Shown: positions 920 through 5,636 of the stretch, piece after piece
Position numbering within the stretch: the stretch's first letter is position 1
Layout: each line of letters starts with the position of its first letter
NCBI GenBank assembly: GCA_944381745.1
Contig: CALWMI010000094.1
Span: 1 to 52,777 of the forward strand
Source: an uncultured Lachnospiraceae bacterium
Lineage (GTDB): Bacteria > Bacillota > Clostridia > Lachnospirales > Lachnospiraceae
Direction: 5' to 3'
DNA: 52,777 nucleotides
The notes under the pieces: generated by a model
Databases searched by the model: none
Seen by the model: the letters and a program-made list of their open reading frames with translations, nothing else
Told to the model about the DNA's origin: nothing
Program-made: the position numbers and the translations under genes

Positions 920-1645
920 ATGGGAGAGGAGCATGCGATTGTCCGCCAGGTGGACGAGGCGAAGGCGGATATGGAGGCCGCAGACCGGCTGATACGGGAA
1001 TATCTGCCATTTATCAAGGCAGAGACGGCAAAGTTCCTGCACCGGCCGCCCAGGGAGGGCGAGGACGATGAGCTGAGCATTGCCATGATTGCGTTTCACG
1101 AGGCGGTGAGAGGATACAGCCGGGGGAGAGGCAGCTTTCTGAAGTATGCTGCGGTGGTGATCAGGAGCCGCCTGGTGGATTACGCCAGGCGGGAGGCGAG
1201 GCATGGAGGCCATGTGTCGCTGGACGCGCCGGCAGGAGAGCATGACGGGGCAGTGGGAGACACTCTCCAGGGCGGGGAAGACCACGGGGAGGAGATCACG
1301 CTGCGGGACGCCACGCGGGAAGAAATCGAGGAGCTGTCCAGACAGATGCAGGCGTTCGGCGTGAGCCTTACGGATGTGGCGGAGAACTGCCCGCGCCAGG
1401 AGAGGACGCTGGAGGCTTGCCGCAGGGCTCTGCGCTTTGCGAAGGAGACCGAAGGGCTGCTGGAGGAATTTGTGCGGATGAAAAGGCTGCCGGTGGCAAG
1501 GCTGGCGGAGGGGAGCGGGGTCAGCCGCAAGGTGCTGGAACGGCACCGGAAGTACCTGGTGGCACTGCTTCTGATCTGGACGAACGGCTATGAGATTATT
1601 CGTGGACATTTAAAACAGGTGATGAGAGGAGGCGCTGCAAAATGA
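920..1645 (+). CDS. sigI: RNA polymerase sigma factor SigI
   Basis: A 241-residue alternative sigma factor of the SigI family. The N-terminal half has the sigma-70 region 2 pattern (DDELSIAMIAFHEAVRGYS, then SRLVDYARREAR) and the C-terminal half the SigI-specific helix-turn-helix (LPVARLAEGSGVSRKVLERH, followed by KYLVALLLIWTNGYEIIRGHLK), close in order and length to B. subtilis SigI. SigI factors direct heat or envelope-stress genes in Bacillus and polysaccharide-sensing regulons in cellulolytic clostridia. ATG 920 is preferred because AGGAGGGGG precedes it by about 7 nt. An in-frame ATG at 836 lacks a good site and would add 28 poorly conserved residues. The stop overlaps the rsgI start by 4 nt (ATGA), so sigma factor and anti-sigma factor are translationally coupled. 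Confidence 0.93.
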   Translation: MGEEHAIVRQVDEAKADMEAADRLIREYLPFIKAETAKFLHRPPREGEDDELSIAMIAFHEAVRGYSRGRGSFLKYAAVVIRSRLVDYARREARHGGHVSLDAPAGEHDGAVGDTLQGGEDHGEEITLRDATREEIEELSRQMQAFGVSLTDVAENCPRQERTLEACRRALRFAKETEGLLEEFVRMKRLPVARLAEGSGVSRKVLERHRKYLVALLLIWTNGYEIIRGHLKQVMRGGAAK

Positions 1646-2628
1646 AATATATTGTGATGGAATGCCATATGAGCTATGCAGTTCTCCTTGATGAGGAAGG
1701 ACGTTTCCGGAAGGCGGCGAACCTTCATTATGAGACAGGAGAGACGGTGACAAATCCGGTGCTGATGCAGGAGGATGAGAGAAAATCCCTGTCCCCGGCC
1801 CGCATGGCCAGGCGGGGAGCGGCGGCTGCGGCCGCTTGCCTGCTGCTGTTCCTGCTTGCCGGCGGCTATTACCGCAGCTACCTGGCACCCTATACCTCGA
1901 TCCTGCTGGCCATCAATCCATCGGTGGAGATGGAGCTGAACCGGCAGGGAACCGTGGTAGGCCTGGACGGGGCCAACGAGGATGGCCACAGGCTTCTGGA
2001 AGGATACAGCGGCCGGGGGAAGGATAAGGTGACGGTGACGGATGAGCTGATCGACCGGGCGATTGATATGGGCTTCCTGTCTGAGGGCGGAACCGTGAGC
2101 TTCTCCATCGACACGCCGGATGAGGCGCTGTTCCAGGAGTACGGCCTGGAGCTGCGCACAGAGGTAACCCGGCATCTGGAAGGGCGGATGCGCGTAGTGA
2201 TCGAGATTACCAGTGCCCAGGAGAGCGGGACAGAGGCGCCGGAGCCGGTAGCCGAGCCGGAGCCAGTATCAGAGCCAGCCCCGCCAGCCGAGCCTGAACC
2301 GGAACAGCCGCAGCCAGTGTCGGAGCCGGTATACGGAGATTCCGCATATGGGGACTCCGGGTATGGAGACGACGGAACAAGCGATTACGGGACAGGGGAT
2401 GATGGAGACAGCGGCTATGGGACAGCGGACGGCGGAGACAGCGGCTATCAGGAGGCAGCGCCTGTCCCGCAGGAAGCGGTGCAGCCCGCAGCGCCTCCTG
2501 CAGGAACAAGCGATTATGGGACAGTGGACGGCGGAGACAGCGGCTACGGGACAGCGGATGACGGAGACAGCGGCTATGACGGCGGGGATTCCGGGTATGA
2601 TGGAGGGGATTCCGGATATGACGGCTGA
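1642..2628 (+). CDS. rsgI: RsgI-like transmembrane anti-sigma factor with DSGY-repeat tail
   Basis: Residues 1-50 form a cytoplasmic RsgI N-terminal domain (YIVMECHMSYAVLLDEEGRF) that in the family binds and holds SigI. A single membrane segment lies at about 58-77. The outside part begins with the RsgI middle domain (LLAINPSVEMELN, then VVGLDGANEDG). From about residue 190 the chain becomes a Pro/Glu linker (PEPVAEPEPVSEPAPPAEP) and then a low-complexity tail with seven DSGY units plus SDYG variants, ending in GGDSGYDG repeats. In C. thermocellum RsgI proteins carry carbohydrate-sensing modules at this position; here there is a Ser/Tyr/Asp/Gly repeat instead. The gene overlaps sigI by 4 nt. 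The same tail motif ends the next gene product, which suggests the two share a binding partner or modifying enzyme. Signal transduction is inferred from the family. Confidence 0.88.
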   Translation: MKYIVMECHMSYAVLLDEEGRFRKAANLHYETGETVTNPVLMQEDERKSLSPARMARRGAAAAAACLLLFLLAGGYYRSYLAPYTSILLAINPSVEMELNRQGTVVGLDGANEDGHRLLEGYSGRGKDKVTVTDELIDRAIDMGFLSEGGTVSFSIDTPDEALFQEYGLELRTEVTRHLEGRMRVVIEITSAQESGTEAPEPVAEPEPVSEPAPPAEPEPEQPQPVSEPVYGDSAYGDSGYGDDGTSDYGTGDDGDSGYGTADGGDSGYQEAAPVPQEAVQPAAPPAGTSDYGTVDGGDSGYGTADDGDSGYDGGDSGYDGGDSGYDG

Positions 2629-2653
2629 AAAAAATAAAAAAAAGTTCCGAGAC

Positions 2654-2681
2654 ACCCCACTTTTGAAAAAAGCGCCCCGTA
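2654..2681 (+). promoter_or_regulatory. candidate SigI-dependent promoter ahead of the lipoprotein gene
   Basis: ACCCC (2654-2658) and CGTA (2678-2681) are separated by 19 nt, about 85 nt before the lipoprotein start and just past rsgI. As I recall them, published SigI promoters have a C-rich -35 (ACCCC-like) and a CGWA -10. No comparable sigma-A promoter is seen here. If real, SigI would activate the lipoprotein and perhaps cotH. The match is by eye only. Confidence 0.35.
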
Positions 2682-2767
2682 ATCTATGGATGTAAAACAA
2701 AAAAGAAAGCGGGAGACGCCGGAACTGGCGGCATACCGTAGAAAAAGGAGAAAAGGAGAGAACGATT

Positions 2768-4003
2768 ATGAAGATGAGAAGAACATTATATGCGGCGGTA
2801 TCTTCCCTGGCAGTGATGGGGGCTGTCCTTCTGACCGGCTGCGGCGCAGAGCAGGCAGCGTCGGGGACATCCTTGGCGGAGACGGGGTTTTTGACCCTGA
2901 GCGTGAACCCAGAAATCGCAATCACGTACAACAAGGAGGGGCTGGTTACAGACCTGGACGGAAGAAATGCGGACGGCGACCAGATTGTGGCGGGATACCC
3001 GGATTATATCGGCAAAGACTGCAAGACGGTCCTGGCGGATCTGGTGAGGGAGATCCATCAAAACGGATACTTTGTGGAAGACATTGACGGCAATGAAAAA
3101 AACATTGTCCTGCAGATTGAGCCAGGTTCCGTGCTTCCAAGAGAAGATTTCCTGGAGGAGGTGAGCGCCAGCACCCAGGCGGCAGTGATGGAGCTGGATA
3201 TGACTTCCGGGATTGTGACGATCGACGAAGTGGATTATGACCCTCACTATACGGCAGAGGGGTACATCACCCTGGAGAAGGCACAGGAAATTGCTCTGGC
3301 CCAGGCAGGGGTGGCAGCGGCAGACGCCAGGTTTGAGGAGAAGGAATTTGACCTGGACGACGGAACCCCGGTGTATGAGCTGGAATTCTACGCGGGCGGG
3401 AACCAGTATGAGTACGACGTAGATGCAGCCACCGGAAAAGTGATCCGCGCGGAGCACGAGGGAGGCTATGCGGACACGGACTATGGCCCGGATAACGACG
3501 GAATAACGGACTATGCGGACACAGACTACGGCCCGAATAACGACGGGGTGACGGACTACGCAGATACAGACTATGGCCCGGATAACGACGGAATAACGGA
3601 CTACGCGGACACAGACTACGGCCCGAATAACGACGGGGTGACGGACTACGCAGATACAGACTATGGCCCGAATAACGACGGGGTGACGGACTACGCAGAT
3701 ACAGACTACGGCCCGAATAACGACGGGGTGACGGACTACGCGGATACAGACTACGGCCCGAATAACGACGGGGTGACGGACTACAGCGATACGGATTACA
3801 GCCCGGCGCCCGCACCCACACCGGAACCAGCGCCCACACCGGCTCCTACCCCTGCCCCTACCCCTGCCCCGGCTCCTACCCCTGCCCCGGTTCCTTCTGG
3901 CGACAGCGGCTATGACGGCGGCAGTGATTACGGCGGAGGCGACAGCGGCTATGATGGAGGCGACAGCGGGTATGACGGAGGCGACAGCGGCTACGATGAC
4001 TGA
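2768..4003 (+). CDS. surface lipoprotein with RsgI-like module, PepSY-like domain and calcium-binding-type repeats
   Basis: The lipobox is LLTGC with the modified Cys at 25. Residues about 38-130 repeat the RsgI middle-domain pattern (LTLSVNPEIAITYN, then VTDLDGRNADG), so this is a paralogue of the extracellular part of the preceding anti-sigma factor. Residues about 160-230 (ITLEKAQEIALAQAG, then PVYELEFYAGGNQYEYDVDA) resemble a PepSY domain. Seven copies of a 15-residue unit follow (YADTDYGPNNDGVTD and close variants); its NDGVTDYADTD core fits thrombospondin type 3-like calcium-binding loops. Then come a Pro/Thr/Ala spacer of wall-spanning type and a tail with four DSGY units that matches the end of RsgI. 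An AGGAGAG site precedes the ATG. It may be an accessory sensor or decoy for RsgI, a co-receptor, or a SigI target. Function is inferred. Confidence 0.8.
   Translation: MKMRRTLYAAVSSLAVMGAVLLTGCGAEQAASGTSLAETGFLTLSVNPEIAITYNKEGLVTDLDGRNADGDQIVAGYPDYIGKDCKTVLADLVREIHQNGYFVEDIDGNEKNIVLQIEPGSVLPREDFLEEVSASTQAAVMELDMTSGIVTIDEVDYDPHYTAEGYITLEKAQEIALAQAGVAAADARFEEKEFDLDDGTPVYELEFYAGGNQYEYDVDAATGKVIRAEHEGGYADTDYGPDNDGITDYADTDYGPNNDGVTDYADTDYGPDNDGITDYADTDYGPNNDGVTDYADTDYGPNNDGVTDYADTDYGPNNDGVTDYADTDYGPNNDGVTDYSDTDYSPAPAPTPEPAPTPAPTPAPTPAPAPTPAPVPSGDSGYDGGSDYGGGDSGYDGGDSGYDGGDSGYDD
3467..3781 (+). repeat. seven tandem 45-bp in-frame repeats
   Basis: Seven exact-length 45-bp units encode YADTDYGP(D/N)NDG(I/V)TD. 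Units 1 and 3 carry the PDNDGI version and units 2 and 4-7 the PNNDGV version. Units 4-7 are nearly identical in DNA sequence, which points to recent tandem duplication and possible copy-number variation between strains. Confidence 0.95.
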
Positions 4004-4034
4004 GCAGCACAGATCTCTGTGAGAGGATAGCGTC

Positions 4035-4155
4035 GGTGTACCAAGATGTATTGCCCCTTGTACACCAGCGCTAAGAAAAGGCGAAGACAAGGAAGCGAGC
4101 GCGGGATGCCGTGAGGCATCCTGCGCCGGAGGTTTCCCCGGCAGGACAGGAAACC
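4035..4155 (+). promoter_or_regulatory. structured cotH leader with three successive hairpins
   Basis: Three stem-loops fill the gap before cotH. The first pairs GGTGTAC (4035-4041) with GTACACC (4060-4066), with a near-continuation CCAAG/CTTG. The second pairs GCGCGGGATGCC (4099-4110) with GGCATCCTGCGC (4115-4126) around a GTGA tetraloop, with one G-T pair. The third pairs GGTTTCC (4131-4137) with GGAAACC (4149-4155). None has a U-run, so none is a standard terminator. The cotH ribosome binding site lies immediately after the third. This could be a cis-regulatory leader, an RNA processing region or a small RNA. Confidence 0.55.
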
Positions 4156-4175
4156 GCCATCAGGAGGAACGGCAC

Positions 4176-5636
4176 ATGAAGAGATTATCCGCAAAATTCT
4201 ATGACCATGGGAGCAAGCTCTTGGTTGCGGCGGCCAGCACAGCCGTCCTGCTCCTGCTGCTGTTTCTCCTGGAAGGGCTGCAGGGAGAGGCGTCCAGCCA
4301 CAGGCCGGCGGGGGAGGAGGCGGAATATGCCTCCCGCCTGTTCGACAGCAGCCGTGTCCACACGCTGGACATACAGATGGAGGACTGGAAGGCGTTTATC
4401 CAGGAGGCGGGGGAAGAGCGCTACACGGCCTGCACAGTGGTGATTGACGGGGAGCGGTTCCCGGGAACCGGCATCCGGGCGAAGGGGAATAATTCCCTGC
4501 GGCTGACGGAGAAGTACGGCCTTCCCCGCTACAGCCTGAAGCTGGAGTTTGACCGGTACAAGGACGGCGGCAATTACTACGGGCTGGATAAATTTTCCCT
4601 GGATTCCTCCTTCCAGGACAACAGCTATCTGAAAACCTTCCTCACTTACGACATGATGGACTTCATGGGAGTCCCCTCCCCGCTGTGCAGCTATGTGCAG
4701 GTGAGCGTGAACGGGAAGCCCTGGGGGCTATTCCTGGCCATCGAGGAGCCGGAGGAGGCCTTCGCCCGGAGGGTGTTTGGGGAGGATCACGGACAGCTTT
4801 ATAAACCGGACTACCGCTCCCTGGCGGATGAGAATGCAGACGTGGCCCTGCGGTATACCGGGGAAGATCCTGCTGGGTACGGCAATATTTTCCACAAGGC
4901 AAAATTTCCCGTGACGGCGGCGGACCAGGAGCGGCTGATCGGGGCGCTGAAAACCCTCCACGAGGGGGAAAACCTGGAGAGTGCGATCCATGTGGACGAG
5001 GTGCTGCGGTACTTCGCGGTGCAGGTGTTCGTGATGAATTGGGACAGCTATCTGGGCAGGACGGGGCACAATTATTTTCTCTATGAGAAGGACGGGATTC
5101 TGAGCATCCTGCCCTGGGACTATAACCTGGCCTATGGGACCTATGCCCTGGGCATGTCCGAGCCCATCCGCGATCCGTATATTCTAGTGAATTATCCGAT
5201 TGTGACGCCAGCGGAGGGAGAGGTTATGAAAAACCGCCCGCTGTACCACAACCTGATGAAAGTGGAGGAGCACTTCCAGGCGTATCTGGGGTATTTTGAC
5301 CAGCTGCTGGAGGGGTACTTCGAGAGCGGATATTTCAGCTCCTTCCTCCGGGAGACGGCGGAGATGATCGCGCCCTATGTGGCGGAGGATCCCACAGCCT
5401 TCTGCTCCTACGAGAGCCATCTGCTGGCGGTGGACGTCCTGGAGAGGCTCTGCCTCCTGCGGGCGGAGAGCGTCCAGGGGCAGCTGGAGGGAACCGTCCC
5501 GGCGACACTGCGGGAGAGGCAGGAACGTCCTGGGGATGGGGTGGATACCGGAGATATCCGGATAGAAGACCTGGGGGATTTCGAAGATCTGGAGACGGCC
5601 GGGGAAAGGAACCGGATAAATTTGGAGGATTATTAA
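4176..5636 (+). CDS. cotH: membrane-anchored CotH-family kinase
   Basis: A 486-residue protein with an N-terminal membrane anchor (about 14-32, LLVAAASTAVLLLLLFLLEG) and a complete CotH domain. Recognisable segments are GIRAKGNNSLRL, the YSLKLEFDRY strand, GLDKFSLDSSFQDNS, PWGLFLAIEEP, the catalytic MNWDSYLGRTGHNYFLY and the metal-binding ILPWDYNLAYG. In B. subtilis spore coats CotH is a protein kinase that phosphorylates Ser residues in repeat-rich coat proteins, and the fold is related to secreted Fam20-type kinases. Here the anchor places the kinase domain outside the membrane, next to two surface proteins with DSGY repeat tails, which are plausible substrates (inference). AGGAGG lies about 9 nt before the ATG. 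A strong terminator follows. The C-terminal 40 residues are acidic and may be disordered. Confidence 0.85.
   Translation: MKRLSAKFYDHGSKLLVAAASTAVLLLLLFLLEGLQGEASSHRPAGEEAEYASRLFDSSRVHTLDIQMEDWKAFIQEAGEERYTACTVVIDGERFPGTGIRAKGNNSLRLTEKYGLPRYSLKLEFDRYKDGGNYYGLDKFSLDSSFQDNSYLKTFLTYDMMDFMGVPSPLCSYVQVSVNGKPWGLFLAIEEPEEAFARRVFGEDHGQLYKPDYRSLADENADVALRYTGEDPAGYGNIFHKAKFPVTAADQERLIGALKTLHEGENLESAIHVDEVLRYFAVQVFVMNWDSYLGRTGHNYFLYEKDGILSILPWDYNLAYGTYALGMSEPIRDPYILVNYPIVTPAEGEVMKNRPLYHNLMKVEEHFQAYLGYFDQLLEGYFESGYFSSFLRETAEMIAPYVAEDPTAFCSYESHLLAVDVLERLCLLRAESVQGQLEGTVPATLRERQERPGDGVDTGDIRIEDLGDFEDLETAGERNRINLEDY

Follow-up and report, generated by a model that had tools for sequence, protein, structure and literature searches.

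What would a kinase predicted to act outside the cell do in the operon of an anti-sigma factor? The question is raised by a locus at positions 920-5636 of contig CALWMI010000094.1, from an uncultured Lachnospiraceae bacterium, which was analyzed over its whole length of 52,777 nt (hereafter, the window, to which all coordinates refer). The locus comprises four genes, all on the + strand, for a sigma-I factor (sigI, 920-1645), a membrane anti-sigma factor (rsgI, 1642-2628), a lipoprotein paralogous to RsgI (2768-4003) and an atypical kinase of the CotH family (cotH, 4176-5636). An earlier note on this DNA had recognized the cluster, and profile matches to all four genes bear it out; the note missed two promoter-like sites as well as the VTC and DUF4956 genes that accompany the cluster in relatives. 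We find that in gut bacteria the tails of a sensor and of a surface protein, built on a repeated [ST]-x-Y motif, are almost confined to gene sets bearing CotH, which suggests, from sequence comparison, that the kinase marks these tails outside the cell. The features that bear on this reading, namely the operon, the motif, its covariation with CotH, the invariant catalytic residues and the promoter-like sites, can be read directly from the sequences.

Repeated motif in the tails of RsgI and the lipoprotein

The C-terminal tail of RsgI (2326-2625) contains 10 [ST]-x-Y motifs, 7 of which are DSGY. In the lipoprotein gene, repeat finding located an array of 45-nt units (3466-3805, 7.6 copies) encoding seven DTDYGPNNDGVTDYA-type peptides, i.e., 15-residue units of the form DTDYGP(N/D)NDG(V/I)TDY(A/S) with two T-D-Y in each, and C-terminal repeats with 4 DSGY (3899-3999). 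The seven and four DSGY counted in the earlier note proved exact on recount, and the RsgI middle domain that it had seen in both proteins is recovered by the RsgI_M profile (E = 2.6e-18, 67.3 bits, in RsgI; E = 4.2e-13 in the lipoprotein). Its account of the tails lacked the 45-nt array and the general [ST]-x-Y motif, and it also passed over the PepSY domain of the lipoprotein. DSGY was dropped as the defining unit, since [ST]-x-Y includes both kinds of repeat and is the form that varies with CotH.

RsgI and the lipoprotein have a 20-residue peptide in common, GDSGYDGGDSGYDGGDSGYD, in which 13 of the 20 codons (15 of the 60 nucleotides) differ and serine is encoded by AGC in one copy and by TCC in the other. 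With so many codon differences, involving both serine codon families, selection therefore keeps the shared peptide, and the likeness of the two tails is, on sequence grounds, greater than chance or recent copying would produce. When the tail was used as a query, the only matches in 7/7 CotH-positive genomes lay in this operon's genes for RsgI and the lipoprotein, and in four of the seven in the lipoprotein alone. Among 23 other RsgI_M proteins (30 loci were fetched, of which 23 gave a recognized frame and 7 did not), Ser or Thr stands at position -2 of 10/122 Tyr after the domain, and none has three strict motifs.

Covariation of the tails with CotH

Relatives were gathered by a CotH-subfamily profile search of the named genome collection, from which the best 80 of 312 confirmed stretches were kept, and by lipoprotein-based locus searches made irrespective of CotH. 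The 108 distinct loci comprise 76 that are CotH-positive, 21 that are CotH-negative and 11 indeterminate. A locus was scored CotH-negative if no CotH of this subfamily lay within at least 6 kb downstream, or if the genome as a whole gave no match (E up to 1e-20), as for L071, L072, L073, L193, L194, L196 and L216; L071 (genome G003), scored CotH-negative, has three other CotH genes in its genome. Indeterminate loci, whose DNA ends early (L221, L230, L232, L258-L261, L266, L272, L278 and L281; five with the motif and six without), were left out, as were loci whose available DNA encodes no RsgI and no lipoprotein (thus many of the 37 kept CotH loci with less than 5.5 kb upstream), same-genome copies, short copies (L203-L213), and L201 and L202, in which SigI and RsgI stand without a lipoprotein.

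Motif-positive loci, defined by three or more strict [ST][DGN]Y motifs, account for 75/76 CotH-positive and 2/21 CotH-negative loci (Fisher p = 6e-17, uncorrected for kinship); a first count, which took in PepSY residues, had 5/21 CotH-negative loci as positive, and its outcome was already known when the stricter form was adopted. The earlier note had named tails without CotH, or the reverse, as the cases that would speak against a link, and in this search they come to the few exceptions in these two counts, an outcome that does not refute the link. Among SigI-bearing loci the split is 67/67 versus 1/16, the single case being L073. The difference extends to the composition of the tails: in CotH-positive loci, Ser or Thr precedes Tyr by two positions at 1002/1062 Tyr of the lipoprotein tails (n = 63; 174 after shuffling) and at 389/450 Tyr of the RsgI tails (n = 58; 89 after shuffling), with at least three motifs in 62/63 and 53/58 of these tails, respectively, as against 0/52 Tyr in CotH-negative lipoproteins (5 proteins) and 1/16 in CotH-negative RsgI (7 proteins). 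Some operons keep the SigI-RsgI-lipoprotein order without CotH, mostly with tails of simple acidic runs (e.g., DDADDIYDD or DDRYDD), and some of their lipoproteins bear extra PepSY repeats instead of a motif tail.

The SigI tree (83 rows) requires at least 11 changes in CotH, and its 8 independent starred (well-supported) pairs agree in direction in 7.6 cases on average and disagree in 0 (p = 0.0078-0.016); without L073, 8/8 starred pairs agree (p = 0.0078). An earlier SigI tree of 69 rows had given 4/5 starred pairs (p = 0.125), and loci were added afterwards. The lipoprotein-core tree, in which some branches are long, yields 6 starred pairs, 5.5 of them the same way and 0 opposite, with a median p of 0.0625.

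Such covariation could also arise if lipoprotein, VTC, DUF4956 and cotH moved as a block, the tail type following by descent and the target of CotH lying elsewhere. The CotH sequences of the 80 kept loci are 64-71% identical to that of the window across many genus names, in keeping with such hitch-hiking, as is the modest p value on the lipoprotein-core tree. However, the RsgI tail, which is encoded upstream with sigI, changes as well; CotH-negative and CotH-positive loci are neighbors on both the SigI and the lipoprotein-core trees, e.g., L111 and L194; and within a single genus G913 has CotH and the motif whereas G1033 has neither. We therefore consider hitch-hiking unlikely.

Conservation of the operon and the possible supply of phosphate

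Among the 43 kept CotH loci with at least 5.5 kb of upstream DNA, 42 contain SigI, RsgI and the lipoprotein, and 38 of these 42 also carry DUF4956 and VTC, a polyphosphate-polymerase-like protein. The remaining locus, L158, has lipoprotein, VTC, DUF4956 and CotH, which brings VTC and DUF4956 to 39/43 loci overall. Genus names among the kept loci include Lachnoclostridium, Eisenbergiella, Blautia, Flavonifractor and Intestinimonas, and gene order is variable: L114, L131 and L135 have cotH after rsgI and ahead of the lipoprotein gene. Neither VTC nor DUF4956 has a match anywhere in the window, where the CotH-VTC-DUF4956 trio is thus incomplete; cotH likewise stands without an adjoining VTC or DUF4956 gene in L110, L115, L121 and L173. 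A six-frame reading by eye of 190 nt between the lipoprotein gene and cotH of the window gave no relic of either gene, and a VTC gene elsewhere in G000 was rejected as the missing partner, since it belongs to another subfamily: the non-operon VTC genes of G000, G223 and G320 score 161-185 bits, versus 248-442 bits in the operons.

The prevalence of VTC and DUF4956 raises the alternative that CotH forms some other linkage on the same Ser and Thr residues, by polyphosphate or nucleotide transfer, with VTC-DUF4956 supplying exported polyphosphate. It would explain the 39/43 loci, it fits the distant likeness of the relatives' VTC to yeast Vtc4 (E = 2.4e-5), and it would provide for an extracytoplasmic kinase, which would be without ATP. 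Yet the motif is kept in five CotH-positive SigI operons that have no local VTC or DUF4956, and the VTC genes found elsewhere in G000, G223 and G320 are of the other subfamily, so that we hold this alternative to be unlikely. The five operons retain 14-37 motifs, and CotH is therefore the covariate.

We view with similar reserve, as an unlikely extension, an extracellular phosphate relay in which VTC would make polyphosphate, DUF4956 would pass it through the membrane, CotH would draw on it in (poly)phosphorylating the Ser/Thr tails of RsgI and of the lipoprotein, here a decoy, and SigI would read the energy or phosphate status of the surface, the donor genes having been lost or replaced in the window. 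The model of DUF4956 (pLDDT 63) has a membrane part that is not interpretable and a ferredoxin-like C-terminal part with ACT domains among its first matches, none of them at E up to 0.001; for a streptococcal DUF4956 counterpart, the available text of PMC12345266 gives predicted MgtC and ACT domains. With a polyphosphate-polymerase-like gene present in the operon of 39/43 relatives, the system offers a handle on phosphate supply for kinases outside the bacterial membrane.

Probable phosphorylation of the tails by CotH

The window's CotH matches PF08757 (E = 3.3e-57, 194.9 bits versus a cut-off of 23.8), and its AlphaFold model (pLDDT 79.7) has the Bacillus cereus CotH kinase 5jd9 as best match (E = 1.1e-16), with 5jd9 and 5jda the top matches and the sole two at E up to 0.001. 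D290 (5043-5045) and D315 (5118-5120) are aligned to a pair of Asp in 5jd9 and are invariant in 99/99 distinct aligned CotH sequences; they were equated with the catalytic/metal-binding D228 and D251 of Bacillus subtilis from the distance of 23 residues in 5jd9 and not from an alignment. Judging from the model, the N-terminal helix (residues 2-34) is likely a membrane anchor with the remainder of the protein outside the cell, and we infer that the RsgI tail, the lipoprotein and CotH all face the same compartment.

Taken together, the locus is probably a sigma-I operon with a built-in extracytoplasmic kinase whose targets are the anti-sigma and lipoprotein tails. Phosphorylation of Ser and Thr in both tails by CotH is the part of this reading that we consider likely: CotH would act on these residues because both tails covary with it independently of VTC and DUF4956, and phosphorylation is the expected chemistry because Bacillus CotH performs it, polyphosphorylating the Ser-rich repeats of CotB in B. 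subtilis according to the accessible text of PMC7821199. The earlier note had already proposed that the kinase modifies the tails, and the arrangement, the conserved catalytic residues and the covariation fit that idea, which had overlooked the module's usual VTC and DUF4956 genes and the [ST]-x-Y motif.

In the mechanism that we envisage, sigma-I promoters would place both SigI's own operon and the unit of lipoprotein gene and cotH under SigI control. RsgI would cross the membrane with its disordered acidic tail outside, and the lipoprotein would hold a copy of the outer domain of RsgI at the surface, together with PepSY and a similar but longer tail. With its anchor on that face too, CotH would phosphorylate the Ser and Thr of [ST]-x-Y, and the many added negative charges might make the tails stiffer or mask them, thereby governing envelope sensing and cleavage of RsgI. 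For B. subtilis RsgI, the part of PMC10128001 available postulates that the disordered outer region senses wall integrity, so phosphorylation could, speculatively, tune that sensing; that it regulates RsgI at all is a tentative suggestion on which the odds are somewhat against us. The lipoprotein may be the main substrate, as the RsgI tail motif is absent or sparse in some CotH-positive loci, and might compete with RsgI for a shared partner or buffer it.

Several observations weigh against phosphorylation. L073 (G095) has motif tails and no CotH found in its genome, nor VTC, and its contig ends inside the lipoprotein gene. L274 retains three motifs, with no CotH over a distance of 8.4 kb; it is nested among CotH-positive operons on the lipoprotein tree, its tail is mostly acidic, and it looks like a recent loss. 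Conversely, L285 has CotH and a short lipoprotein frame without a motif, and among CotH-positive loci the motif is missing from the RsgI tails of L173 and L111 and numbers only 1-2 in those of L120, L142 and L182; RsgI therefore need not be a substrate everywhere. ATP is not expected outside the cell. Moreover, the repeats targeted by Bacillus CotH are basic and rich in Ser, Lys and Arg, unlike the acidic tails here. Finally, Tyr is as constant as Ser/Thr, with Y 481 times and F once after DG[VI]TD, which fits binding too.

The last point invites the interpretation that the tails are ligands for CotH, a metal or a wall polymer, not substrates, CotH and tail being co-selected as receptor and ligand. 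The acidic frame of the unit is also as conserved as Ser/Thr, and by eye the unit loosely resembles calcium-binding D-N-D-G repeats, but the window tails match no calcium-repeat family at E up to 10, in a search whose program filters drop most weak matches. The hydroxyl position itself is T 505 times, S 3 times and A once in DG[VIAM]x[DN]Y, and S in 99/99 cases in [DN]xGYD (units within one array are not independent), and the motif serines use both AGY (173) and TCN (222) codons. Such near-exclusive use of Ser or Thr at one position, whichever codon family encodes it, agrees with a modified hydroxyl, and we find a purely ligand role unlikely.

Relation to known systems

Each of these gene families is already known. 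The CotH-CotB-CotG module of the Bacillus spore coat, as described in the available text of PMC7821199, shares the CotH fold, the catalytic Asp and Ser-rich repeat substrates; it differs in belonging to the sporulation coat and in not being an anti-sigma operon, without SigI/RsgI. The SigI/RsgI systems of B. subtilis and Clostridium thermocellum have the same SigI, RsgI_M N-P site, disordered or binding outer region and sigma-I promoters, whereas the accessible parts of PMC10575876, PMC12203970 and PMC10128001 describe no kinase in the operon, and the repeated [ST]-x-Y tail is absent from the 23 other RsgI_M proteins. SigI6 recognizes the promoter of a cellulosomal CotH gene, which does not figure as an RsgI partner in the portion of PMC4711584 available.

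The trio of CotH, polyphosphate polymerase and DUF4956 at Pel loci (PMC7112168 and PMC12345266, both accessible in part) consists of the same three families as in the relatives' operons. There it is tied to the Pel polysaccharide, and the analyses in the available text of PMC12345266 did not find it outside the Pel locus; here it belongs to a SigI/RsgI operon (no search for neighboring Pel genes was made). Closest in gene content is NELoc-2 of Clostridium perfringens (CP4_0458-0465), for which a 2010 table in PMC2879425 enters VTC and CotH in the same locus as SigI and a cell-wall protein of 348 aa, along with membrane proteins of 226 and 222 aa, the size of DUF4956, there named tubulin/FtsZ. 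The accessible text of that source describes no RsgI or tail and draws no link among the genes.

The earlier note had called the arrangement undescribed. This holds for the partnership of CotH and RsgI, as our literature search, mostly without subscription papers and preprints and with sources accessible in part, found neither such a partnership, nor CotH-linked tail phosphorylation, nor an extracytoplasmic kinase joined to an anti-sigma factor; it does not hold for the trio, known at Pel loci, or for SigI, VTC and CotH, tabulated together in C. perfringens. The tails thus provide a concrete, testable candidate substrate for a CotH kinase outside the spore coat, and the natural operons with and without CotH are ready controls.

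Promoter-like sites and further features of the locus

A pattern search with ACCCC-like, TTT and CGTAWTCT elements, in strict and looser forms, located sigma-I-type promoter-like sites on the + strand before sigI (ACACC..TTTT..CGTATTCT, 865-896) and before the lipoprotein gene (ACCCC..TTTT..CGTAATCT, 2654-2685). These are the only strict matches in the window (the second as an overlapping pair at 2652/2654), the - strand having none. Published sigma-I promoters have a CGWA motif in the -10 element, according to the available text of PMC10575876. Before the lipoprotein gene, the strict pattern occurs in 47/72 CotH-positive and 8/21 CotH-negative loci and the looser one in 62/70 and 15/20, respectively; before sigI, the corresponding counts are 18/65 and 5/18 (strict) and 38/64 and 9/18 (looser). 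As controls, the looser pattern was found in 1/218 stretches before cotH, VTC and DUF4956, and 58 times elsewhere in 3.16 Mb of strand. An alternative sigI start at 836 is improbable because of the promoter-like site at 865-896 and an AGGAGG, seen by eye, just 5' of 920.

The top profile matches of SigI are SigI families (E = 3.9e-51; 173.9 bits versus a curated cut-off of 306), and the Sigma70_r2 profile is above its cut-off. RsgI, encoded directly after sigI, has its RsgI_M domain, which includes an INPS site, at residues 86-192, and its RsgI_N profile reaches 15.9 bits versus a cut-off of 25. The N-P site of RsgI_M, the predicted autocleavage site, is invariant in 8/8 aligned sequences, and the PDB chains 8hep_B and 8u9o_B start at its position. 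The lipoprotein comprises an LTGC lipobox (by eye), RsgI_M (residues 41-122), PepSY (167-228, E = 1.2e-12) and the repeat tail. RsgI_M matches in the window's own genome are limited to RsgI and the lipoprotein, and CotH matches number five.

Other CotH genes, at L222 and L223 (G000 C32 and C114), are accompanied by a different-subfamily VTC (167 and 185 bits) and DUF4956. Extra PepSY repeats without a motif tail were seen in several lipoprotein relatives outside CotH operons, namely L216, L262, L269, L270 and L275, and also in L230 and L232, two of the indeterminate loci. Plasmid carriage was dropped, the three records reaching an identity of at most 34.9%. In L068 (4419-5592, G051), a pair resembling an AbiE-type toxin-antitoxin system by eye lies between rsgI and the lipoprotein gene, and in L067 (10159-10587, G032), a frame resembling a serine recombinase by eye follows cotH; the NELoc-2 table in PMC2879425 likewise has a resolvase within its cluster. 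Contigs end in or beside the lipoprotein repeat in L109, L113, L122, L170 and L258-L261, and short-read assemblies may hide this operon. Just upstream of sigI, the window encodes a DUF1287 protein (46-657, E = 1.6e-44).

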